This document shows, piece by piece, positions 32,310 to 63,768 of a DNA stretch of 63,768 nt. The notes under the pieces are model-generated. The model ran no database searches. It was not told the origin of the DNA and worked only from the letters and a program-made list of their open reading frames with translations. Numbering within the stretch: the stretch's first letter is position 1; each line of letters begins with the position of its first letter. The DNA comes from a virus. Both the position numbers and the translations under genes were made by a program. The stretch is taken from the IMG/VR virus record IMGVR_UViG_3300036398_002458, positions 1 to 63,768 of that record; one strand, 5' to 3'.

Positions 32310-32842
32310 GCGAACATCCTCTTGAGTGCGGCGAACAGGTCGCGGGCTTGGGCGATGGTCAGCGTGGAGATCAGCGCGTCTACGTCGTAGGCGGGAGTCA
32401 CGGGCGCCGGGGCGGCGGGCACTTCTTTACGAGTGAGCACGACCTTGGGCTTGTCGGCCTTCGGGTTGCGCCCCGTGGGCGTGGGAGTGTTGCGGGCCTT
32501 GCGCAGTTTGCTCAGTTTGACCGGCGAGTATTCCTGAAGGTTTGTGAAGTACGTGCCGTTGGGCGCGCGAGTGATGATGCCTGTGCGGGACATCTGCGAC
32601 ACCAGTGCAGATACGGATGAGTCCTTGTGTCCCTTGGCTACCAGAGCATCGCGGATCTGGCGGGTGGTGCGGTGCGGGTTGTCGCGCACGTAGTTGAACG
32701 TCTCCCGCGTCACGTCAGTGGTGCGAGTAAAGAACGGGGGTAAGTTGGGTTTATGTTGTGTTTGCACGGTTTGCTCCGGTTGGTTCCATTCGTTAAGGAC
32801 TGATTGCAGTGCTGATTTCAGATCAGGCATGGTGGGCTCCAT
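32306..32842 (-). CDS. Winged-helix DNA-binding protein
   Basis: 178 residues. A central domain (ETFNYVRDNPHRTTRQIRDALVAKGHKDSSVSALVSQMSRTGII, about 47-92) is a good winged HTH; it is followed by a basic linker (KLSKLRKARNTPTPTGRNPKADKPK) and a C-terminal helical segment. The start codon lies inside a copy of the 15-bp palindrome (32841-32855), so the protein could be regulated through, or bind, that element. An internal ATG at 32830 is the alternative start. Confidence 0.65.
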   Translation of the reverse strand: MEPTMPDLKSALQSVLNEWNQPEQTVQTQHKPNLPPFFTRTTDVTRETFNYVRDNPHRTTRQIRDALVAKGHKDSSVSALVSQMSRTGIITRAPNGTYFTNLQEYSPVKLSKLRKARNTPTPTGRNPKADKPKVVLTRKEVPAAPAPVTPAYDVDALISTLTIAQARDLFAALKRMFA

Positions 32843-32855
32843 CTAAGGCTTAGAA
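32841..32855. promoter_or_regulatory. Palindromic element, copy 1 (one mismatch)
   Basis: ATCTAAGGCTTAGAA. It includes the start codon of the wHTH gene (ATG at 32842) and the stop of the 32850-33044 gene. Confidence 0.6.
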
Positions 32856-33044
32856 GAGTTCAAGTTGACGGTCGTCCGGGTGCGGACGTGGGGCTTGCGG
32901 ATCGCGCTTGGCTTGCGCGTGTTGAAACTCGTCGATGTCCCGAAGGCGCATCTCCAGTCGCTCTCCCACGGCACGTGCCAGGGCGTCGCCCTTCAGGTAC
33001 ACCATGTTCAGCAACTCCTCATCACTTAGGTTCTCGTATCTCAT
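32850..33044 (-). CDS. Small acidic protein, unknown function
   Basis: 64 residues (MRYENLSDEELLNMVYLKGDA...DDRQLELF). It is helical and charged. Its stop lies within the 32841 palindrome; its start overlaps the upstream stop by 4 bp. The C-terminal QLELF resembles a beta-clamp-binding peptide (QxxLF-like), which is suggestive only. Confidence 0.55.
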   Translation of the reverse strand: MRYENLSDEELLNMVYLKGDALARAVGERLEMRLRDIDEFQHAQAKRDPQAPRPHPDDRQLELF

Positions 33045-33442
33045 TTGCGCGGGTCCTCTAGGTCAATGAATGTGGTTAGGTGATGGTTCTTGTCGGTACG
33101 GAACCACAGGATCTCGTCCGGTGGCGGCTCGTTGGTCTTGCGTAGATGGCCGGATATCTTCGCCACCACGAGGATTGGCACAAGCCATACCGGCACGTTG
33201 TCTGTGTTTCCACGGTCAGTCCATTCGGTGCCGTCGTACCAACGCTTGATGAGATAGACATCCCCACGTCGCTCGTACCGGAACTCGTATTCGTCGTTTG
33301 TCATGTGGATTGATTTGTGTTGATGTCGGGCTCGTCGCAGTCCGTCGGCCCAGACAATCTCGTCTATCGATCGGTACCAGTCCTCATGGTCAGCAACCGT
33401 CTGCCTGATCTGCTCAAGCCAATACTGTTTGATCAGACCCAT
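33041..33442 (-). CDS. Hypothetical protein
   Basis: 133 residues from the ATG at 33442, preceded by GGGAGTGGACG. It contains YWLEQIRQTVADHEDWYRSIDEI, a beta-looking middle (YEFRYERRGDVYLIKRWYDG) and a short hydrophobic segment (VPVWLVPILVVAKI). It overlaps the DUF3150 gene by 29 bp. Not recognised. Confidence 0.5.
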   Translation of the reverse strand: MGLIKQYWLEQIRQTVADHEDWYRSIDEIVWADGLRRARHQHKSIHMTNDEYEFRYERRGDVYLIKRWYDGTEWTDRGNTDNVPVWLVPILVVAKISGHLRKTNEPPPDEILWFRTDKNHHLTTFIDLEDPRK

Positions 33443-34331
33443 CGTCCACTCCCCAGTCGAATGCCGCCAGGATCGCGTCCACCTTCTGCTTGGTGGCCGC
33501 ACGGGTACCGTCGGACTCTCGCAAGTCCTTTGGTGTTACGCCAGACAGAACTTCCTCCAGACGACGCCGCGCCTTCTCCAGTGCAGGGTCGTTGGTGATG
33601 TTCATGTGCGTCAACAACTCGCACAACTCCACGGCGCCAGTGACCATGGTGTCGTGGAACTTGCGCTTCTTGCCGTCCTCTTCGATCACGAGCCGGTCGC
33701 TCAGGCGGGACAGCGCATCGTGCAGTCGAGTCCATGAGTCCTGCGCCGCCGCTTCCAACTGCTGCTCCATGCGCTTGTCGTACTGACGCATGAGATCGCG
33801 TTGCACTTCGCTCTCGATGTCGAGCCGGAAGTCGCCCGCCGTGGGCAGGGGAGAGAACGCAATGTCGAACCGGAACTTGCGCGCCACCTGCTCACGGGTG
33901 GGGTACTCATCACGATCAAAGAGCGTGCCCAACTGGAACGCGGCGGCGGCCACGAGCGTGTCGTACTTGTCGAGGAACGCCTCGACCAGACGGTTGAACT
34001 CAGCCTCATGCACATTCATCTCCGCCTTGTAGGACTGCAACAGGGCAGTGGGCAACAAGCGCGCGCCGTAGTCGTTCCAGGGCTTCGTGAGCCGGTAGTG
34101 GTCGGCACGGGCACGGGCTTGGTACTTGGTGATGGCGTCCAGTTCGGCACACTCTGCGAACAGAGACTTGTAGACAGACGCCGCCTTGGACGACTTCGCG
34201 CCCTTGGATTGCGTCACCTCGGCTTGCGTAGCCTTGTCCTGCTTGCGCCCCGAGTACAGGGAGATTTGCAGGTCCACGAGCATGGCCGCACGTGCCACGC
34301 CTGCTACGGGGTTGGTTTCGATGTAGTTCAT
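33414..34331 (-). CDS. DUF3150 protein
   Basis: 305 residues, helical and charged. It has the DUF3150-like start (two residue blocks around LVDLQISLYSGRKQDKAT) and LAxYKAEMNVHEAEFNRLVEAFLDKY-type helices in the middle, read in pieces by eye. DUF3150 proteins are often encoded beside MoxR ATPases and VWA proteins. That is the case here: the MoxR and VWA genes lie 2-4 kb upstream in the same operon. It is probably a substrate or partner of that ATPase module. Confidence 0.65.
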   Translation of the reverse strand: MNYIETNPVAGVARAAMLVDLQISLYSGRKQDKATQAEVTQSKGAKSSKAASVYKSLFAECAELDAITKYQARARADHYRLTKPWNDYGARLLPTALLQSYKAEMNVHEAEFNRLVEAFLDKYDTLVAAAAFQLGTLFDRDEYPTREQVARKFRFDIAFSPLPTAGDFRLDIESEVQRDLMRQYDKRMEQQLEAAAQDSWTRLHDALSRLSDRLVIEEDGKKRKFHDTMVTGAVELCELLTHMNITNDPALEKARRRLEEVLSGVTPKDLRESDGTRAATKQKVDAILAAFDWGVDDGSDQTVLA

Positions 34332-34591
34332 TCTGATTTCTCCTGTTGCTTTTGAACGAATTTAATTGCTTCGACTTGCTCGTCGCTTACGACATTGATG
34401 GTCAGTTGCTCTAGCGGGTTGAATGGTTGGATGATTGGCAGGTAGTTGTTGCCGCTTCCAGTAGTCCCCTTGCCGTTGCCAATCCATTTGGTTTGCATGC
34501 TCTCGGCTTTGCACAGCAGCGTTGACAACGCTTCCAACTGCTCGTACGTCAGCAGCACCGTGTGGTCGCTGATCTCGACTTTGAATCTCAT
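34328..34591 (-). CDS. Hypothetical protein
   Basis: 87 residues. It starts MRFKVEISDHTVLLTYEQLEAL and has a glycine-rich middle (NGKGTTGSGNNYLP) and ends VEAIKFVQKQQEKSE. It is coupled by 4-bp overlaps to DUF3150 downstream and the 204-residue gene upstream. Not recognised. Confidence 0.55.
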   Translation of the reverse strand: MRFKVEISDHTVLLTYEQLEALSTLLCKAESMQTKWIGNGKGTTGSGNNYLPIIQPFNPLEQLTINVVSDEQVEAIKFVQKQQEKSE

Positions 34592-35202
34592 ACGGTTTCT
34601 CCTTCGATTTCAAACTTCACTTCGTTGATCTCGCACGACTCTATGAAATACTCCTCGGACGAGATGTGGTCCCACTCCGACCGCAACGCGTCGAGCAGAA
34701 CGTCGGCTTTTTCTTGTGCGAACTCCCGCACCACTTCCTCGATGCGGGACTCTCGCCACTGGTCGTCTAGCAGTTCTTCCCAAGTCTCTTCGTCCAACTC
34801 GGAGAAGATTCCGCGCGGCGCCATGAAGCGGGTGTTTTCCTGAATGTCTACCTCCAGGGTCTTGTTCCGCCATCCAGTCAGATACACCCGTGCCCACGAG
34901 CGATCGTGCTCCACAGCGATGTACAAAGCCGGGTAGCGTTCGTCCAGCCCCTTGCGCTTCATGAAGGGAGCGAGGTGAAACGAGCCCTGCCAAGCGGCAT
35001 CAGCGTGGCCGTAGTCGATGCCCTCGAACTGGATGTCCGCCACCTGCACTCCCAACTCGTCCATCTGCTGTTTGAAGTCGTCCTCCACCGTGTCCCACCA
35101 CTCGGGGTGAAGGCAGTTGTCGAGGAAGCCCTGATGCTCTTTCTCAAACCGCTTTGGGTCTAGCGTCTTGAGTTCGTGGATGTCTACTTCGCGTGTAGTC
35201 AT
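34588..35202 (-). CDS. Acidic protein of the MoxR/VWA island, unknown function
   Basis: 204 residues, strongly acidic, with many Trp (HPEWWDTVEDDF, AWQGSFHLAPF, WDHISSEEYF). It carries IQFEGIDYGHADAAWQGSF, seen as a conserved block in related phage proteins. No enzyme motif. Just upstream lies a perfect palindrome (35214-35228) and GGAG. Confidence 0.55.
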   Translation of the reverse strand: MTTREVDIHELKTLDPKRFEKEHQGFLDNCLHPEWWDTVEDDFKQQMDELGVQVADIQFEGIDYGHADAAWQGSFHLAPFMKRKGLDERYPALYIAVEHDRSWARVYLTGWRNKTLEVDIQENTRFMAPRGIFSELDEETWEELLDDQWRESRIEEVVREFAQEKADVLLDALRSEWDHISSEEYFIESCEINEVKFEIEGETV

Positions 35203-35213
35203 TTCATTTCTCC

Positions 35214-35228
35214 ATCTAAGGCTTAGAT
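35214..35228. promoter_or_regulatory. Palindromic element, copy 2 (perfect)
   Basis: ATCTAAGGCTTAGAT. It includes the stop of the VWA gene and lies directly before GGAGAAATG of the 34588-35202 gene. Confidence 0.75.
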
Positions 35229-36407
35229 GTCCAGGTGAATCGTGGTGCCGAACGGCGCCACAAGGTTAGAAGTCACAGCCCACAGGGTTGGGATGGTGGT
35301 GCGTCCCCAGTCCCCGACATACCCGTCGGTGAACTGCACGATGGCCTGGGGAGCCAAACTTTTTTCTTTCAAGTAATCAAACAACACCGACCCGTCGGTG
35401 CCGCCGCCACCCTTGATCTTCAGGTCCTGCACGGCGAACTGACCATCCTCGAAAGTTTGATGCCCGGCCACCTCGGTGTCCCAATAGATCACGTGGACCT
35501 TGCCCGGCTTGACCTGTTCGATGATGGTGCGCAACTCCGAAACGAACCGCGTCATTTCATCGCCGCCGAAAACCGAGCCGGAGGTATCGAACCCGATCAC
35601 CAACTCGGTGATAGTGATGCCCTGCATGGACGGCATGTAGATGTCGTCGGCCAAGAACCTACGGTTGGGCTTGCGCCACGTGGACTCGTCGCGTCCCTGG
35701 CACATCTCTTGGATGAACTCACGCAACGCCTTGCGCCAGTCAACCTTGGGTGCAAGCAAGTCGCCGAAGATACCGTCGGCCATGCCCGCGCCCTTGCCTG
35801 CCAACTTCTGACGCAACATCTCGCCCTGGCGCACGGCACGTGCGATCTCCTGGGCTTGTGCTTCTGCGGCTTTCTTGGCCTCATCGCCACCGTCCCTGGC
35901 GTTCTCCCAGTCGTGCGTGTCGAGCCCGCCATCGCCGTCCCCATCGCCGCTCTCGCCCCCATCAGGCGGCGGGTTCTTCTTCAGGTCGTCGAAGATCTGA
36001 CGCACCGACCAGCCCCGGTACTTCTCGTCGGGCTTGATGCCGATCTTGGGCATGCGGATGAACCCCTCGCCCGCATCCATGTCCACGAGTGCGAGGTTGA
36101 CAAAGTAGTCGGCGGCTACGTTGGCAAGGTGCGGGTCCTCGTCGTGCAGGTCCTGCCACGTGTGCAGGTGGCGATACGCCTTGTGCGTGGCCTCGTGCAA
36201 CACCACGAAGCGCAACTCCGGGTCGGTCGGCATGTACTGCTTCATGAACTCGGGGTTGTACTTCACGTCCCAACCATTCGTGGCGGCGGTGGGCACCTCG
36301 TCGGTGACCTCGACCTTGCCGCATGCCAGGACCCCGGCATACACGCATGCCTTCTTGTGTTGCATGATGGCGATGTGCGCCTTGCGGATACGATCAATCG
36401 GTTCCAT
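35223..36407 (-). CDS. VWA-domain metallopeptidase-like protein (DUF2201 type)
   Basis: 394 residues. The N-terminal part carries a zincin motif H71-E-A-T-H75. A glycine/aspartate-rich linker follows (about 147-165). The C-terminal half is a von Willebrand A domain with MIDAS residues D274-T-S276-G-S278, a GGGGTDGS loop and FTDGYVGDW. This two-domain layout is the usual partner of MoxR-type AAA+ ATPases, comparable to the CobT/CobS pair. It may be a chaperone- or protease-like complex. Its stop sits inside one palindrome and another lies just upstream of its ribosome site. Confidence 0.8.
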   Translation of the reverse strand: MEPIDRIRKAHIAIMQHKKACVYAGVLACGKVEVTDEVPTAATNGWDVKYNPEFMKQYMPTDPELRFVVLHEATHKAYRHLHTWQDLHDEDPHLANVAADYFVNLALVDMDAGEGFIRMPKIGIKPDEKYRGWSVRQIFDDLKKNPPPDGGESGDGDGDGGLDTHDWENARDGGDEAKKAAEAQAQEIARAVRQGEMLRQKLAGKGAGMADGIFGDLLAPKVDWRKALREFIQEMCQGRDESTWRKPNRRFLADDIYMPSMQGITITELVIGFDTSGSVFGGDEMTRFVSELRTIIEQVKPGKVHVIYWDTEVAGHQTFEDGQFAVQDLKIKGGGGTDGSVLFDYLKEKSLAPQAIVQFTDGYVGDWGRTTIPTLWAVTSNLVAPFGTTIHLDI

Positions 36408-36423
36408 GGTTTCTCCTGTTGTG

Positions 36424-36438
36424 ATCTAAGGCTTAGAT
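36424..36438. promoter_or_regulatory. Palindromic element, copy 3 (perfect)
   Basis: Between the small 36446-36613 gene and the VWA gene. On the minus strand it is followed by CACAACAGGAGAAACC and then the ATG at 36407. Nearly the same leader follows copy 5. Confidence 0.75.
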
Positions 36439-36445
36439 GTTGTGG

Positions 36446-36613
36446 CTACTTGATTCCCCTGCCTATGAAGGCAGTCTGGATACGGTGCGCATCACGGGAT
36501 TCGACGTGGTTCTTCATGGGTGGGGTGTATGCCTTGCTGATGCGAGCAGGGCTCCAGTCCTTGTGCAAGCGCACACGGCGCGTTCCGTTGCTGAGGTATT
36601 CGATGACTAGCAT
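36446..36613 (-). CDS. Small basic protein between MoxR and VWA genes
   Basis: 55 residues from the ATG at 36613, preceded by AAGGGGG. MLVIEYLSNGTRRVRLHKDW, then SPARISKAYTPPMKNHVESR. It is basic and probably beta-rich. It lies 10 bp after the MoxR stop and before a palindrome at 36424. Not recognised. Confidence 0.5.
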   Translation of the reverse strand: MLVIEYLSNGTRRVRLHKDWSPARISKAYTPPMKNHVESRDAHRIQTAFIGRGIK

Positions 36614-36623
36614 GGCGGCCCCC

Positions 36624-37685
36624 TTAGAAATACTTGCCCAACTTAGCGGCGGCTGCGGTGAAGCGGCGGTTCTTGCACGCCATCGCCACCTTGGACTTGT
36701 TGCCCGCAAGTGAGGATACGAACAGCGAGTAGGCTTCGAACGACGTGATGCGTTCGGCGTACACCATGACTGCATCGAGATCGTCCTCGGTCACACGGTT
36801 GGCAAGCATGAAGGCCAGGATAAACATGGCACCCACGGCGTCCTCTTTCGGAACCTTGGTCTTGTGCGGATCCTTGACGATGTTCTCGTACAGGGGCAGG
36901 GAGTCAGCGAGGTTGACCAAAGCCACCATGAGTTGCGCCGCCGACTCGCCGATCGTGCCTGCTAAAGCCGGCAAAAATGCGTCCCCCAAAACAGACCTTT
37001 GTTTCACGATGTTCGATCCACGCTCCATGGAACGCGGTGAGCAGAAGGTCCGCGTGTTGCCAGTCAGGGGGTTGAAGATGTACGGGTTCTTCTCGTTGCG
37101 ACCCAGGTCGGTGTAGCACTGGAACACCTCGGGGTTTTGCTTGGCGAACGCCATCATCTCGGGGGCGATGTCGTTGTCCGCCGCCCAGTGCAACCACTCG
37201 TCAGCGGTGGGGTTGGCCACCACGAGTTCAGTCATGCGGTTGTAGGCATGCGCCGGGATGTTGTCGCCCACCCCGTCGGTGTCGAGGTTTGTGGTTGCGA
37301 TGACGATCGACCCGGTAGTCAGGCCACGGTCAGCGATGCGCTTCTCGTTGACGAGCGGCAACAGCATGTTCAGCACAGGGCGGGACGCCTTGCCCAACTC
37401 GTCAAGCATGATGAGCAGGGGGCGGTTGCTGCCGTTGGCAAGCCCGAAGCGGGCGTTCGGTGCGTAGTTGGTAACCATGGCTTCGCGGTCGATGACGGGC
37501 ATGCCCAGGTCACCGAGGTCAAGGTTAGCCACGTCGATATAGCAGGGGATGTAGTCCGGCAGTTCCTTGGCGAGCATGGTCAGGATCGCTGACTTGCCCA
37601 CACCGGGTTGGCCCCGCAGGATCACGGTGTTGGTGGTGCCGACGGCACGGATCACGGTAGCGGCTTGGTTCAGATTGACTTTCAT
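36624..37685 (-). CDS. MoxR/CobS-like AAA+ ATPase
   Basis: 353 residues. Walker A GQPGVGKS (25-32), Walker B LLIMLDE (90-96), sensor-1 N133 in ATTNLDTDGVG, and a following helical lid. Sequence order fits the MoxR/CobS branch, which remodels or activates VWA-domain partners. The partner is encoded next in the operon (35223-36407), with DUF3150 after it. CobS-like ATPases occur in some phages, but a role in cobalamin synthesis is unlikely without other pathway genes. Confidence 0.85.
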   Translation of the reverse strand: MKVNLNQAATVIRAVGTTNTVILRGQPGVGKSAILTMLAKELPDYIPCYIDVANLDLGDLGMPVIDREAMVTNYAPNARFGLANGSNRPLLIMLDELGKASRPVLNMLLPLVNEKRIADRGLTTGSIVIATTNLDTDGVGDNIPAHAYNRMTELVVANPTADEWLHWAADNDIAPEMMAFAKQNPEVFQCYTDLGRNEKNPYIFNPLTGNTRTFCSPRSMERGSNIVKQRSVLGDAFLPALAGTIGESAAQLMVALVNLADSLPLYENIVKDPHKTKVPKEDAVGAMFILAFMLANRVTEDDLDAVMVYAERITSFEAYSLFVSSLAGNKSKVAMACKNRRFTAAAAKLGKYF

Positions 37686-37705
37686 GATGGGTTCCTATTG
37701 CGTTG

Positions 37706-37720
37706 ATCTAAGGCTTAGAT
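37706..37720. promoter_or_regulatory. Palindromic element, copy 4 (perfect)
   Basis: In the 74-bp gap between the 37760-38533 gene and the MoxR gene, about 20 bp upstream of the MoxR start. Confidence 0.75.
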
Positions 37721-37759
37721 GTTGATGAGTGATTTTGCTTTGGTTGGCTTACGGATGGT

Positions 37760-38533
37760 TTACTTGGTCGGGGTGGGTGCGGTTACGGTCTCATACAGAT
37801 CCTCCTTGGCGGCTTTCATGATGGCGGTCCACGCTTGGCCTGCCGGGAGTTTGGTGTACTCGTAGGAGCGGCTTGCCCAGTTGAACCCGTGGGTGAACGC
37901 ATACCTGCGGATGATGCCCGGCCAGTTGTGGCTCCGGTCAGGGTTGGTGAGGATGTCGCGCAGTTGCGGGGCGATGCGCCCACCTGCGTTTTGCCACCCT
38001 ACGTCGTCGGACGTAGCGGCGGCATGCAGGAGTTTGAACACGTCCTTGAACCCGGACGCCTTGACTCCATCGTGCAGTTCCTTGGTTTCGCTCTTGTCGA
38101 TGCGCTTGGCTTCGAAGGGCTTGGGTTGAGAAAGTAACTCCCCGGACGATGAGAATGAAATTCCATCGTAGTACCGATACTCCTTGCCGTTGACGCTCAC
38201 GATCGGTTGGTTCTTGCTGAACTTGACGCCGTTGTAGACCGACACGCGAAGCCCGGCGTCGTGGAAGAAAGCACCAAACGCATCGTTCATGCAGATGCGG
38301 GTGGTCGGGGAGCGGAACCAGTTGTCGCAGTTGAGGACGAAGGAATCGTCGGGCTGCACGGTGATGACGTCGGTGTTGTGGAAGCGCACGGCCATGTTGC
38401 CCACGGCAGTCTCGCGCACCCTCTCGTGGTTGCGCCCACGGCGAGAGCCGTCGAGCGGCGCCGTGCCTTTGTGCTTGCCGCGCTTGTACATGTGGCGGGC
38501 TACGTGAAGTTGCATTGCGGTGTAGACAGTCAT
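37760..38533 (-). CDS. Conserved hypothetical protein
   Basis: 257 residues. The N-terminus is basic (HMYKRGKHKGTAPLDGSRRGRNHERVRET). It is followed by a folded core with FHNTDVITVQPDDSF, NCDNWFRSPTTRICMNDAFG and a C-terminal helical part ending APTPTK. It is the first large gene of the MoxR/VWA island and is preceded by GGAG and a palindrome (38552-38566). No motif is recognised. Confidence 0.6.
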   Translation of the reverse strand: MTVYTAMQLHVARHMYKRGKHKGTAPLDGSRRGRNHERVRETAVGNMAVRFHNTDVITVQPDDSFVLNCDNWFRSPTTRICMNDAFGAFFHDAGLRVSVYNGVKFSKNQPIVSVNGKEYRYYDGISFSSSGELLSQPKPFEAKRIDKSETKELHDGVKASGFKDVFKLLHAAATSDDVGWQNAGGRIAPQLRDILTNPDRSHNWPGIIRRYAFTHGFNWASRSYEYTKLPAGQAWTAIMKAAKEDLYETVTAPTPTK

Positions 38534-38551
38534 TTGGTTTCTCCGGTTGTG

Positions 38552-38566
38552 ATCTAAGGCTTAGAT
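38552..38566. promoter_or_regulatory. Palindromic element, copy 5 (perfect)
   Basis: Contains the stop of the zinc-ribbon gene. On the minus strand it is followed by CACAACCGGAGAAACC and then the ATG at 38533, the same leader as copy 3. Confidence 0.75.
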
Positions 38567-38767
38567 GGTTCGCTTGGGGTTGAGTTGGGACAGCAGTGCG
38601 GTGTCGGTGAAGAGCATGTAGTTGGACTTGTTGAGGGGCGCCACGCACCAGTGGCGGCGTTCCTCCTTGGCTTGTTCGTCGCCGCACTCCAGGCAGATGG
38701 GCTTGATGGCCGCCCGTTCGGGCGGGTCGATCTCATGGCCGCAGATGCGGCACTTGGGTATGGTCAT
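38561..38767 (-). CDS. Small zinc-ribbon protein
   Basis: 68 residues. CRICGHEID at 6-14 and CLECGDEQ at about 25-32 give a four-cysteine zinc ribbon like that of DksA/TraR-type proteins, followed by RRHWCVAPLNKSNYMLF. It could bind RNA polymerase or nucleic acid. The stop lies in a palindrome (38552-38566). Starts 1 bp after the upstream stop. Confidence 0.6.
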   Translation of the reverse strand: MTIPKCRICGHEIDPPERAAIKPICLECGDEQAKEERRHWCVAPLNKSNYMLFTDTALLSQLNPKRTI

Positions 38768-38768
38768 T

Positions 38769-38981
38769 TCAGTCCTCCAGTTGGGTTATCACGGCGTCGA
38801 TCCGGGCCATCTGATCGGCCAACACCTTGGCCTTGAACGCGTACCAACCTTCGGGCAGGTCGGCGTCGCCGTAGCGGTCCTGCATGTACCCGTCGAGCGG
38901 TGTGCGTACGTTGCGCCATTCGCGCAGGATCGTGAGCAGGGTGTACGCCGTGTCCGGCGTCAGGTTCAGACTGGTTTTCAT
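38769..38981 (-). CDS. Small protein, first gene of the leftward operon
   Basis: 70 residues (MKTSLNLTPDTAYTLLTILREW...LADQMARIDAVITQLED), helical. GGAG precedes the ATG at 38981. It is the first open frame downstream of the control hub. A palindrome and a candidate promoter lie within 62 bp upstream. Function unknown. Confidence 0.55.
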   Translation of the reverse strand: MKTSLNLTPDTAYTLLTILREWRNVRTPLDGYMQDRYGDADLPEGWYAFKAKVLADQMARIDAVITQLED

Positions 38982-39007
38982 GTGGTTTCTCCAGGTTGGG
39001 CCCCGCC

Positions 39008-39022
39008 ATCTAAGGCTTAGAT
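39008..39022. promoter_or_regulatory. Palindromic element, copy 6 (perfect, extended stem)
   Basis: CATCTAAGGCTTAGATG flanked by CCCCG and CGGGG, giving a longer imperfect hairpin. It lies 27 bp upstream of the first leftward gene and could overlap the -10 of a promoter. Confidence 0.75.
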
Positions 39023-39043
39023 GACGGGGGTTTGGGTTGTTAA
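39016..39043 (-). promoter_or_regulatory. Candidate leftward promoter overlapping palindrome copy 6
   Basis: On the minus strand: -35 TTAACA (39043-39038), 16-bp spacer, and -10-like TCTAAG (39021-39016) inside the palindrome. The upstream block ATCTAAC/AAACACTT/ACAACCCA is shared almost exactly with the promoter at 40949-40977. The -10 is weak. If real, anything bound to the palindrome would block it. Confidence 0.4.
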
Positions 39044-39059
39044 GTGTTTGGTTAGATGT

Positions 39060-39392
39060 TTGGGTGTTGTTGAGTGCGATAGGACGTGTCAGCGTGGCAT
39101 CTCCCGCATCACTGCGGCTCCACGCTCAAGGGAACGTACCGGTTTCCCGGCATAGGTTCCCATCCATTTAGGCACTATGCGTCGGCTTTGCATCACGCTA
39201 TCCCCGTTCGGAGCCGGGCAGGGCTCACTACTCTACGGGTACACCACGGATGCACCGGACTGACTACCGGACGCCTTCTCGCGCAGGGAGGTTACTTGGA
39301 TGTACCGGGCGTCTCACGACGTGGACCGGGCTAGCCTATCTTTCACCTATGGCGCTTCTGCCATGTGGCAGCGGCGGTTTGTTTGCCCCGGC
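39060..39392 (-). ncRNA. Candidate structured RNA between two palindromes
   Basis: About 330 bp with no convincing gene. Read on the minus strand it forms several clean hairpins: CCGCA-GTGA-TGCGG (39104-39117) nested in AGCGTGG/CCACGCT (39091-39126); CCGG-GAAA-CCGG (39139-39150); GCATAG/CTATGC (39150-39180); and CGTC-GTGA-GACG (39310-39321). Three have GNRA tetraloops only on this strand, which fixes the orientation. It does not match tRNA, tmRNA, RNase P or the group I core as I know them. An open frame at 39086-39334 on the plus strand has no ribosome site and looks accidental. Confidence 0.45.
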
Positions 39393-39407
39393 ATCTAAGG
39401 CTTAGAT
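39393..39407. promoter_or_regulatory. Palindromic element, copy 7 (perfect, extended stem)
   Basis: CATCTAAGGCTTAGATG flanked by CCCG and CGGG, again extending the stem. It forms the upstream boundary of the candidate structured RNA; copy 6 forms the downstream boundary. Confidence 0.75.
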
Positions 39408-39412
39408 GACGG

Positions 39413-39577
39413 GACGGGTCAGCGGATTGTTAAGGAGCGCGGGTTGGCATGGGGTAGGGGAAATGGCAACCGCATCGGAGATCGCAGGGCGAAGTCCGAC
39501 TGAACCCTTATTATGCCTGAAAGCGGGGCGTTTGTCAAGTCTCCAGAAAATGTTTTGGAGAGTGAGATTGGAGGGGG
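39413..39577. other. Intergenic, no feature seen
   Basis: 165 bp between palindrome copy 7 and the iteron region. It contains TCCAAAACATTTTCTGGA-type short inverted sequence near 39540-39560 and a second TTAACA on the minus strand near 39430. No gene is supported. Confidence 0.4.
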
Positions 39578-40022
39578 TTGTAACGGATGTAACGAAATTG
39601 GCGAGGTTGTAACGAAATTCGCGTAACAACACTAACCCTTAGGGGGACAATGAATGGCGTGGTAGTGGGGGCTTACTTCAGGGGCGAAAATGGGGGGTGC
39701 AACGGTGTAACGCGGTTTTAGAGAGAGAAAGCGAAAAAACAAGAATTTTCGCTCAAAAAACAAGTCACCAAGGGTTTACACCTACAAAATGAGCGAAATT
39801 TGGGAATCATATAAAAATCCGCGTTACAGCGTTACATCCTATCTATCTATCTATTATGTAGTGTAGTAACAACACAAACACCTGCTTTTTCCTACGGGTT
39901 GCTACCTACTTTTGCTACATTTTGCAGCAACTCGGGGTGTTTTCGTTCGGGTTAACCCGAGGGTTAGTGTTGTAACGCCGATTTCGTTACATCGAGGCAA
40001 ATTTCGTTACATCCGTTACAAG
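39578..40022. other. Candidate replication origin: iterons in nested inverted repeats
   Basis: Left arm 39578-39644 and right arm 39957-40021 form an imperfect inverted repeat of about 65 bp; their first 22 bases match exactly when one is reversed. A second nested pair is at 39698-39717 and 39815-39835. GTAACG/CGTTAC occurs about ten times over the whole dyad. The centre is AT-rich, with (TATC)4 at 39840-39855 and a CGGGTTAACCCG palindrome at 39948-39959. No gene is present. An iteron origin bound by a phage initiator is the likeliest reading; a multi-operator control region is the alternative. Confidence 0.5.
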
Positions 40023-40025
40023 GTC

Positions 40026-40040
40026 ATCTAAGGCTTAGAT
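40026..40040. promoter_or_regulatory. Palindromic element, copy 8 (perfect)
   Basis: CATCTAAGGCTTAGATG, 4 bp from the right arm of the iteron inverted repeat and next to the 40062-40090 terminator. Confidence 0.75.
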
Positions 40041-40061
40041 GCGAAAGTGCTTGACGCCGCG

Positions 40062-40090
40062 CAAAAAAGCGCGCACACTACGTGTGCGCG
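40062..40090 (-). terminator. Intrinsic terminator, leftward
   Basis: Stem CGCGCACAC/GTGTGCGCG (9 bp, 3-base loop; 40070-40090) followed on the minus strand by C and TTTTTT. A strong rho-independent terminator. It would end any transcript coming from 40.1-40.3 kb before the iteron region. Confidence 0.75.
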
Positions 40091-40093
40091 GTC

Positions 40094-40108
40094 ATCTAAG
40101 GCTTAGAT
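40094..40108. promoter_or_regulatory. Palindromic element, copy 9 (perfect, extended stem)
   Basis: CATCTAAGGCTTAGATG with GCGG before it and CCGC after it, extending the stem through one bulged base. It lies directly upstream (leftward reading) of the 40062-40090 terminator. Confidence 0.75.
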
Positions 40109-40117
40109 GCCGCCCCT

Positions 40118-40268
40118 GCGTGATAGTGTCTAATCTTAGATGCGGCGGGGTCGGCCCGGCGATCTAAGATTAGATGCGGCGCTTCGCGCGCCTGCTCCCC
40201 CACGCGCCCTCTCGCTCACGCGCCTTCGGACTACTATCACGCAAACGTAGCGCAGGCTACGTTTGCGT
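40118..40268. repeat. Nested inverted repeats in the control hub
   Basis: TGCGTGATAGT (40118-40128) pairs with ACTATCACGCA (40232-40242). Overlapping its right end, ACGCAAACGTAGC (40239-40251) pairs perfectly with GCTACGTTTGCGT (40256-40268) around a 4-base loop. The outer loop encloses the two variant palindromes. No U-tract follows, so these are not simple terminators. Confidence 0.65.
40128..40175. promoter_or_regulatory. Two variant palindromes in inverted orientation
   Basis: GTCTAATCTTAGAT at 40128-40141 and ATCTAAGATTAGAT at 40162-40175. Each lacks one central base, and they are reverse complements of each other at 13 of 14 positions. Both are followed by GCGGCG. Confidence 0.6.
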
Positions 40269-40275
40269 AGGCAAC

Positions 40276-40298
40276 AAAAAAGCCCGCCGAGGCGGGCT
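40276..40298 (-). terminator. Intrinsic terminator of the 40329-40886 gene
   Basis: On the minus strand: AGCCCGC-CTCG-GCGGGCT followed by TTTTTT. It lies 30 bp downstream of the stop codon at 40329. A strong rho-independent terminator. Confidence 0.85.
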
Positions 40299-40328
40299 GT
40301 GGGGGCAAGGGGCCGAAGCCCCTGCTGA

Positions 40329-40886
40329 TCACTCTGCGGTTTCCTTGAACCCGTCCAGGGATTCGATCGCCACGTCCAAGACTTGCGCGGCGAACTCTGT
40401 CAGGCCGAGCATGCGGGCCTGGGCGATCGCCTTGGACAACGTTTTGTCCAGATCCTCGCGTGACGTGGACGTCACGGCGCCTGCCTTGCTCGCGCCACCC
40501 TTGCCCGCCTTGCCCCAGGGCAGGCCAAATTCCGGGCGATTCTTGATATCGGCGAACCATTCAACGCCGTGGTGCAAGGCGCGGGCGGCGCCCTGCGCAT
40601 ACTCTGTAACCGTGCTACGGTGCAACAGGCCGTCCGCAACAGCCCGGACAAACGCATCGGATTCCCGGATCGCCTTTTGCACGGCCTTGCAAGACTCTTG
40701 ATCCTTGCCGATGCCCGGGGCAACGCGCACCGCGTCAATGTATTGATTCATTGTGCGGGACAGTTGATCGGCAAAATTGGACGCGGCCTTGTCAAATTTC
40801 CCGTAGGATTTGACGATCGTCAGGGCAAATGGGTTGAAGGCCGGGGCGGTGACAGCGGGCTTCGTGGGGGTCTTGATAACTGACAT
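40329..40886 (-). CDS. Monocistronic hub protein, unknown function
   Basis: 185 residues from the ATG at 40886, chosen because AAAGGAAATCACC precedes it; a start 81 bp upstream overlaps the promoter. The N-terminus is Pro/Thr-rich (VIKTPTKPAVTAPAFNPFAL). The rest is helical, with SNFADQLSRTMNQYIDAVRV and TSREDLDKTLSKAIAQARML. It has its own promoter and terminator and sits alone beside the candidate origin, so it is probably expressed first. An early host-takeover or initiator protein is plausible; no family is recognised. Confidence 0.65.
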   Translation of the reverse strand: MSVIKTPTKPAVTAPAFNPFALTIVKSYGKFDKAASNFADQLSRTMNQYIDAVRVAPGIGKDQESCKAVQKAIRESDAFVRAVADGLLHRSTVTEYAQGAARALHHGVEWFADIKNRPEFGLPWGKAGKGGASKAGAVTSTSREDLDKTLSKAIAQARMLGLTEFAAQVLDVAIESLDGFKETAE

Positions 40887-40948
40887 GGTGATTTCCTTTG
40901 ATTGACGTTGATTGAATTGCCGATCGCGTGTCGCAATCGACAAGGCCG

Positions 40949-40977
40949 ATTGTGCATGGGTTCGCATGGGTTGTCAA
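40949..40977 (-). promoter_or_regulatory. Sigma-70-like promoter of the 40329-40886 gene
   Basis: On the minus strand: -35 TTGACA (40977-40972), 17-bp spacer, -10 CACAAT (40954-40949). The consensus -35 and ideal spacing make it convincing. A variant palindrome lies just upstream, and the flanking sequence is shared with 39016-39043. Confidence 0.7.
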
Positions 40978-40989
40978 GTGTTTAGTTAG

Positions 40990-41004
40990 ATCTAAGGGTT
41001 AGAT
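40990..41004. promoter_or_regulatory. Variant palindrome (one mismatch)
   Basis: ATCTAAGGGTTAGAT, 12 bp upstream of the -35 of the leftward promoter at 40949-40977. Confidence 0.6.
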
Positions 41005-63054: not shown

Positions 63055-63390
63055 ATGGCTACGACTATTACCTGGGTAATCTCTGCCCTTGATTGCATCC
63101 CCAACACCCCTGAAGGTGCTGACTACGTTGTCACGGCCCACTGGTCCTGCAACGGCACGGACGGCACTTATAGCGGCAGCGTCTACTCGACCTGCTCGTT
63201 CCCGGTGGTGCAGGGTTCTTCGTTTGTGCCCTACGCACAATTGACAGAGAATGAGGTTCTGGGCTGGTGCTGGGCAAACGGCGTAGACAAGGCCGCAACC
63301 GAAGCCGCCGTTGAGCAACAAATCCAGAACCAGATCAACCCGCCCATCGTGCAACCCCCGTTGCCCTGGGCTGCTCCCGTAACTGCTTAA
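63055..63390 (+). CDS. Small late protein (full-length form of the gene truncated at position 2)
   Basis: 111 residues. TTITWVISALDCIPNTPEGA, then YVVTAHWSCNGTDGTYSGSV and a C-terminal helix AATEAAVEQQIQNQINPP. Three cysteines. The W-V-I-S-x-L-D-C-I-P block is common in phage genes after fibres. Its tail differs from the other copy. Function unknown. Confidence 0.65.
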   Translation: MATTITWVISALDCIPNTPEGADYVVTAHWSCNGTDGTYSGSVYSTCSFPVVQGSSFVPYAQLTENEVLGWCWANGVDKAATEAAVEQQIQNQINPPIVQPPLPWAAPVTA

Positions 63391-63411
63391 CCCAACTCCG
63401 AAAGGAAACCC

Positions 63412-63585
63412 ATGAACGACAAGACTGAAATCAAACTGACCCTCGGCTTGGTCAACGGCATCCTGCAATACCTGGGCACCCGCCCGTATTCGGAAGTGTT
63501 CCCGTTGATCGCGGAAATCCAGTCGCAGGCTACGCCGCAGGTGCCGGTGCCTGACGTCGCTCAAGGCGAAACCCAGGTGCAGTGA
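63412..63585 (+). CDS. 57-residue late protein, variant B
   Basis: Shares the core LTLGLVNGILQYLGTRP with the 58-residue protein at 163-339, but starts MNDKTEIK and ends VAQGETQVQ. GGAAA precedes the ATG. It ends in a TGATG overlap with the partial membrane protein. It is an allelic form of, or a diverged copy of, variant A. Function unknown. Confidence 0.65.
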   Translation: MNDKTEIKLTLGLVNGILQYLGTRPYSEVFPLIAEIQSQATPQVPVPDVAQGETQVQ

Positions 63586-63768
63586 TGGAAGAGTCGGTCG
63601 AAGTGCGCGTAGCGGTGCATGAGGCCGTCTGCGCCCAGAGGTACGAGGCGATTGAGAAGCGCCTTGAAGATGGCAGCAAGCGGATGCGAAACATCGAAGT
63701 CTGGCTGTACATCACTCTGGGCGCTGTTCTGCTTGGCCCTGGCGCAATGGCAGAGGTGGTCAAGAAGT
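63585..63768 (+). CDS. 5' part of the small membrane protein (partial)
   Basis: The first 61 codons of the same 65-residue protein as 339-536, cut off by the window end. The single base difference at 63656 is silent (GAA/GAG). Function as described there. Confidence 0.6.
   Translation, partial: MEESVEVRVAVHEAVCAQRYEAIEKRLEDGSKRMRNIEVWLYITLGAVLLGPGAMAEVVKK

Follow-up and report, generated by a model that had tools for sequence, protein, structure and literature searches.

A structured RNA family predicted to lead an early operon in uncultured podovirus-like phages

The DNA analysed here, referred to as the window, is an entire virus record of 63,768 bases that encodes a Terminase_6-type large terminase, a DNA polymerase A, a DUF927 protein and a helicase; ARAGORN detected no tRNA or tmRNA gene in it. 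In the annotated contexts of the RNA described below, portal, TerL and TerS genes on the opposite strand are followed by a variable gene pair and then by the RNA, behind which small genes, a gene of 250-265 amino acids, a MoxR gene and a 390-amino-acid gene lie in the same orientation. The last of these is presumably VWA-like, which we take solely from its MoxR neighbour. In the window the RNA is single-copy and belongs to the leftward operon only (Table 1).

Just upstream of its promoter, 10 of the 23 GTAACG words in the window are crowded into 440 bases (39580-40019), and such words recur at the corresponding place in loci L115-L117 and L123; the region is possibly a replication origin or a regulator-binding region. 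Behind a gene of 187 amino acids (40892-40332), the minus strand has two terminator-like hairpins with T-runs, at 40070-40090 and 40281-40298, which would insulate this gene from the promoter of the RNA.

Table 1. Coordinates of the RNA, its elements and neighbouring features in the window
Feature	Position	Strand	Basis or remark
sigma-70 promoter TTGACA (39538-39533), 17-nt spacer, CATAAT (39515-39510)	39510-39538	minus	11/12 consensus positions
conserved RNA	39385-39070	minus	homologue comparison
H1, 5' hairpin CTGCC/GGCAG, flanked by conserved ACCGCCG and AAGC	39358-39371	minus	arm pairing, 35 members
variable region, contains first GTGA hairpin	39293-39353	minus	differs among members; outside covariance model
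first GTGA hairpin CGTC-GTGA-GACG	39321-39310	minus	within variable region
conserved single strand CCTCCCTGCGCGAGAAGGCGT (family pattern CTCCCTNNGYGAAUAGGCGU)	39271-39291	minus	near-invariant; search seed
P2 hairpin CCGG-TAGTCAGT-CCGG	39255-39270	minus	100% of cells paired in 62 members
P3 stem GCATC/GATGC, apical GGTGTA...GATAGC module	39190-39253	minus	87% of cells paired
PL 5' strand AGTGC, then conserved CTAAATGG	39172-39176	minus	pairs with 39077-39073
P4 GGGAAC/GTTCCC, inner CCGG-GAAA-CCGG	39130-39161	minus	covariation
P5 CGTGG/CCACG, internal loop, CCGCA-GTGA-TGCGG	39093-39124	minus	covariation
conserved CTATCG overlapping PL 3' strand GCACT	39073-39082	minus	conserved core end
leader 3' part: A/C-rich tail, palindrome hairpin, ribosome-binding site region of first gene	38995-39069	minus	
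first ORF behind the RNA, 70 aa	38769-38981	minus	no family match
MoxR-type AAA ATPase, same operon	36624-37685	minus	Pfam AAA, PHROG 1297; query for fetching relatives
palindrome copies	32841, 35214, 36424, 37706, 38552, 39008, 39393, 40026, 40094, 40990		

The first relatives were fetched through neighbouring proteins and had alignable sequence at the same place, further members were found with patterns taken from the conserved blocks, and an nhmmer profile search gave 64 distinct homologues, a count that overstates the independent evidence, all members being from one phage lineage. All of them are metagenomic DNA (IMG/VR and one MAG), nearly all in viral contigs; member L047, obtained by pattern search, lies in a contig of an alphaproteobacterial MAG. 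The length of the RNA ranges from about 315 nt in the window up to about 500 nt in relatives. A covariance model, R1, recovers all 62 members tested with E-values from 1.6e-4 to 8e-66, and it finds nothing at E<=1 in 71 control loci (806,541 bases, about 0.8 Mb). Searches of phage isolates by DNA gave chance matches only, none of them convincing, and the RNA is absent from 19-kb stretches of HTVC023P, HTVC027P, 023Pt_psg01, DSL-LC04 and Pag-Yong1, isolates with a related terminase. The family appears specific to a lineage of uncultured podovirus-like phages.

Within this phage group its distribution is evidently patchy. Many loci fetched in the third pattern scan lacked the RNA. A fetch that did not depend on the RNA, by alignment of MoxR, yielded 80 loci, some of the carriers among them being contigs already known from the pattern search. 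All of these loci with at least 61% MoxR identity and at least about 2.1 kb of upstream sequence have the RNA, except L134. It is also present in a more distant clade with 35-37% MoxR identity (L020, L038, L046, L031, L026), whereas lineages with 39-60% identity, such as L115-L117, L123 and L125, gave no profile or model match. Several related lineages have the same gene order without the RNA, which is therefore dispensable or replaced there.

Single-sequence folding could not decide whether the RNA is structured, because its folding energy was no better than that of shuffled sequences (MFE z-score -0.67; 25 of 100 shuffles fold equally well). In a structure-free MAFFT alignment of 13 members, 22 of the 34 pairs change on both sides, and 87.3% of cells are paired versus 66.2% after shuffling. 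The covariation score of this alignment was 0.549, compared with 0.192 for the shuffled and 0.035-0.109 for the slid control, the latter being biased in favour of the structure by a structure string drawn by eye from the window and other members, a bias of which the shuffle control and the fixed-offset reading of P2 and PL are independent. MAFFT misregisters P3 by one base in alignment A5, which lowers the count for this stem there (78%). In an alignment of 62 members that was itself fitted to R1, both sides change in 32 of the 34 pairs and 91.5% of cells are paired versus 60.6% when shuffled. The covariation exceeds that of all 500 shuffles.

Comparison of homologues was the check proposed with the original prediction, which had described a structured RNA at 39060-39392, and the strong covariation supports it; the segment almost certainly belongs to a family of structured RNAs, and the predicted limits were nearly exact. 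Its leftward orientation on the minus strand, likewise predicted, is indicated by the excess of G-U over A-C cells (96 versus 39). To judge from the alignments, selection acts strongly on the paired segments and on several unpaired ones. The opposite view, that the segment codes for protein or that its helices arose by chance, can point to an 82-codon frame on the plus strand; however, a frame spanning the core is open in antisense in only 7 of 53 homologous cores and in sense in one of 53, in agreement with the earlier statement that no credible gene is present. Together with the covariation, this leaves that view practically no probability, and we regard it as refuted.

The predicted minus-strand fold consists of H1, the variable region, P2, P3 and then the long-range helix PL, which closes a domain with P4 and P5. 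Four hairpins had been described beforehand, three of them with GNRA tetraloops and one, now P5, as a nested stem with an internal loop, and all are present in the sequence. As elements of a conserved structure, the two GNRA hairpins of the core (P4 and P5) covary, but the first GTGA hairpin falls into the variable region. The fourth hairpin, H1, is outside the covariance model; across 35 members, which show 16 distinct arm pairs, 136 of its 140 arm cells are paired, compared with 88.5 on average and 104 at most after shuffling. The best-conserved elements, P2 and PL, were both missing from the earlier list.

P2 and PL can be read without any alignment, through fixed offsets from conserved words, in many different sequences. 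In P2, the four bases that follow GGCGU form pairs with those behind UAGNCAGU, and for the arms CCGG, CCCG, TGGG, CTGG, CACG, CCAG, TGCG, AGGG, GCCG, ACCG and others the complement is always present. In PL, pairing joins the bases ahead of CUAAAUG to those behind CUAUCG; 94% of cells are paired, all five pairs have changes on both sides, and the variants include AGUG/CACU, ACUG/CAGU, CCCA/UGGG, CGUG/CACG, GGUG/CACC and CUUA/UAAG. Rows in which CTACCG had been mistaken for the CTATCG anchor (L011, L013, L091, L093, L096) were excluded as evidence. Changes on both sides were further found in all six outer and all four inner pairs of P4, in nine of the ten pairs of P5 and, among the 62 members, in all five pairs of P3.

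The apical GGUGUA...GAUAGC module of P3 is swapped for a short GGUAACAGC in L013 (4280-4400), L028 (3629-3671), L033 and L118, and the replacement reads GGTAACAGC in L013, L028 and L033. P3 is thus, by comparison of the members, one stem with interchangeable modules. Two further pairings were considered and dropped: that of ACCGCCG with AGGCG, guessed by eye, leaves changes from GGCG to GACG uncompensated, and that of the 3' CUAUCG with GAUAGC is contradicted by the short form of P3, which lacks GAUAGC and still keeps CUAUCG. About 15-95 nt past the core, 36 of 53 members (L065, L004 and L020, for example) have a hairpin UAGGGCAUG...CAUGCCCUA, a raw count, without a shuffle control, of stems of 7 bp or more that begin with UAG, UAA or CAG. 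This hairpin is absent from the window and may mark where the RNA is processed or where it ends.

The original prediction recognised no RNA class in the segment, and Rfam 15 bears this out, with no match at the gathering threshold in the whole window or in 13 loci; permissive scans of the window, L058, L013, L028 and L047 returned weak sub-threshold matches only. No account of this RNA was found in the library of literature searched. Large phage RNAs are already known as a broad kind, and it is the family that appears to be new: within the catalogued RNAs that were searched, nothing related to it could be detected. Its closest parallels in function are GOLLD and ROOL, which phages and prophages encode as large RNAs of intricate fold with conserved loops and no known function (PMC12286853). 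The present RNA is likewise large, intricately folded, of phage origin and provided with conserved loops. It differs in that covariance models of GOLLD and ROOL give no match in the window or the 13 loci, in length (315-500 nt compared with about 660 and more than 800 nt) and in its surroundings, since GOLLD and ROOL lie beside tRNA islands, whereas this RNA is an early-operon leader in a window without tRNA.

The RNA had been thought to occupy the place of a gene. Instead, it is very probably the untranslated 5' leader of the early operon transcript, because a strong promoter stands upstream of it in all carriers that could be assessed and terminators behind it are rare. All 51 loci that offer 500 nt or more of upstream sequence have a TTGAC(A/T) promoter that agrees with the consensus at 10 or more of 12 positions (shuffled expectation 1.6 loci), 190-450 nt upstream of the core, and a terminator-like site within 300 nt downstream occurs in 3 of 50 loci. 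Transcription in the window is predicted to start at about 39503. The RNA is codirectional with the operon in every annotated context, and the first gene downstream of it varies between members. In sister lineages without the RNA, by inspection, the promoter is followed by a gene at once. With a near-consensus sigma-70 promoter ahead of it and the first gene behind it, the RNA should be transcribed by the host polymerase as soon as infection starts.

We tentatively favour, with confidence not far short of even, a new family of leader RNAs that would be freed from the message and act in trans on a component of the host. The RNA would fold while being transcribed and could then be released, perhaps by a cut at or near the conserved 3' hairpin, as a free early RNA. 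This mode would resemble that of other large phage RNAs without an obvious controlled gene. Members differ in the first downstream gene, so that none stands out as consistently regulated; this variability and the near absence of intrinsic terminators argue against a switch dedicated to one gene and against antitermination at such terminators. That the RNA acts mainly in trans is a judgement rather than a result, held a shade more cautiously still: the early operon has almost no intrinsic terminators for a cis-acting RNA to overcome, but the RNA lacks its own terminator, and a free form would therefore need processing, which we infer, and a position right behind the promoter is equally expected of a cis-acting leader. 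It is rather unlikely, although conceivable, that the first product of infection is a large folded RNA that disables or reprograms the host polymerase, a nuclease, the ribosome or an antiviral system; in T7, the first protein serves a comparable host takeover.

We rank trans action above a role in cis, which nevertheless has a sizeable chance of being correct. A cis-acting leader could modify the polymerase as the HK022 put RNA and EAR elements do, block Rho on the untranslated leader or protect the 5' end of the message. It would account for where the RNA sits, after the promoter and ahead of the first gene, for its constant codirectionality and for the rarity of terminators behind it, and the window showed no further promoter-like site on the minus strand from 25.0 to 39.1 kb. 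Like put and EAR, this is a structured RNA heading an operon transcript, with the promoter in every locus assessed and the operon behind it. However, those antitermination elements are far smaller (roughly 70-130 nt), the present RNA is single-copy, and its operon has almost no intrinsic terminators to read through, terminator-like sites being as rare as 2 in 102 kb of carriers versus 5 in 104 kb of lineages without the RNA. Antitermination at intrinsic terminators is not supported, there being no terminator excess in the operon. A riboswitch, or another leader sensing a ligand or protein and governing the first gene, would suit the leader position, the conserved unpaired nucleotides and the hairpin that many members have close to the first ribosome-binding site. 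We consider it improbable, given that the first gene is not conserved, that no terminator or anti-terminator switch was found and that a phage early operon is an unlikely site of metabolite sensing.

Two further explanations seem very unlikely, to a similar degree. Group II introns occur in phages (PMC12350094), and a weak similarity to group II intron domain I (RF02005) was therefore followed up, the idea being a degenerate intron that retained domain I and lost its catalytic part. The short matches in L013 (21.0 bits, E 6e-4) and L028 (19.4 bits, E 2e-3) are in the same register, but they score far under the gathering score of 49 and pair bases assigned to P2 by covariation. Moreover, the window, L058 and L047 have no RF02005 match at E<=10, domains V and VI (D5/D6; RF00029 for domain V) were not matched at E<=10 in the regions scanned in the window, L058, L013, L028 and L047, and the reciprocal R1 search of nine group II loci gave noise (best 4.8 bits). 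Descent from a group II intron is thus not supported, whether judged by score, by domain V, by the other members scanned or by the reciprocal search. A packaging RNA used by the terminase, like the pRNA of phi29, would likewise be a phage RNA made from an early promoter, here one adjoining the terminase genes. It would differ from pRNA in size, phage and terminase type, the TerL being of the ordinary Terminase_6 type and not the phi29 ATPase; in addition, related phages with the same terminase genes, including a homologous TerL, lack the RNA, and so do the isolate stretches named above.

Large, strongly conserved RNAs without known function are rare, and few have such a clear place in infection; this one would make up the initial few hundred nucleotides of a transcript from a host-type promoter. 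With the model and the 64 members, the family can be searched for and tested. Should the RNA act in trans, it would bring early host takeover by RNA into phage biology as a new theme; should it act in cis, it would be a transcription-modifying leader of unusual size.

The two palindromes (39008-39022 and 39393-39407) that had been proposed to frame the RNA lie outside its conserved part. They are two of ten dispersed copies of the 15-bp palindrome ATCTAAGGCTTAGAT, which is confined to one 8-kb stretch of the window (32841-41004) and is mostly intergenic, with a chance expectation of 0.01; they are a phage-specific dispersed repeat and not part of the RNA. Several relatives (L020, L022, L029, L030, L031, L033, L035, L038, L039, L042, L079) each have a repeated palindrome of their own, such as TTCATACCGTATGAA, TTCCCACGGTGGGAA or ATCTAATATTAGAT, with a copy inside the RNA core, at a hairpin tip where this was read. 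The palindromes look like mobile elements whose insertion is tolerated at the ends of RNA hairpins. The two ends of the record (1-522 and 63219-63768) form an imperfect direct repeat, with 85.8% identity and 28 gaps in 550 alignment columns.
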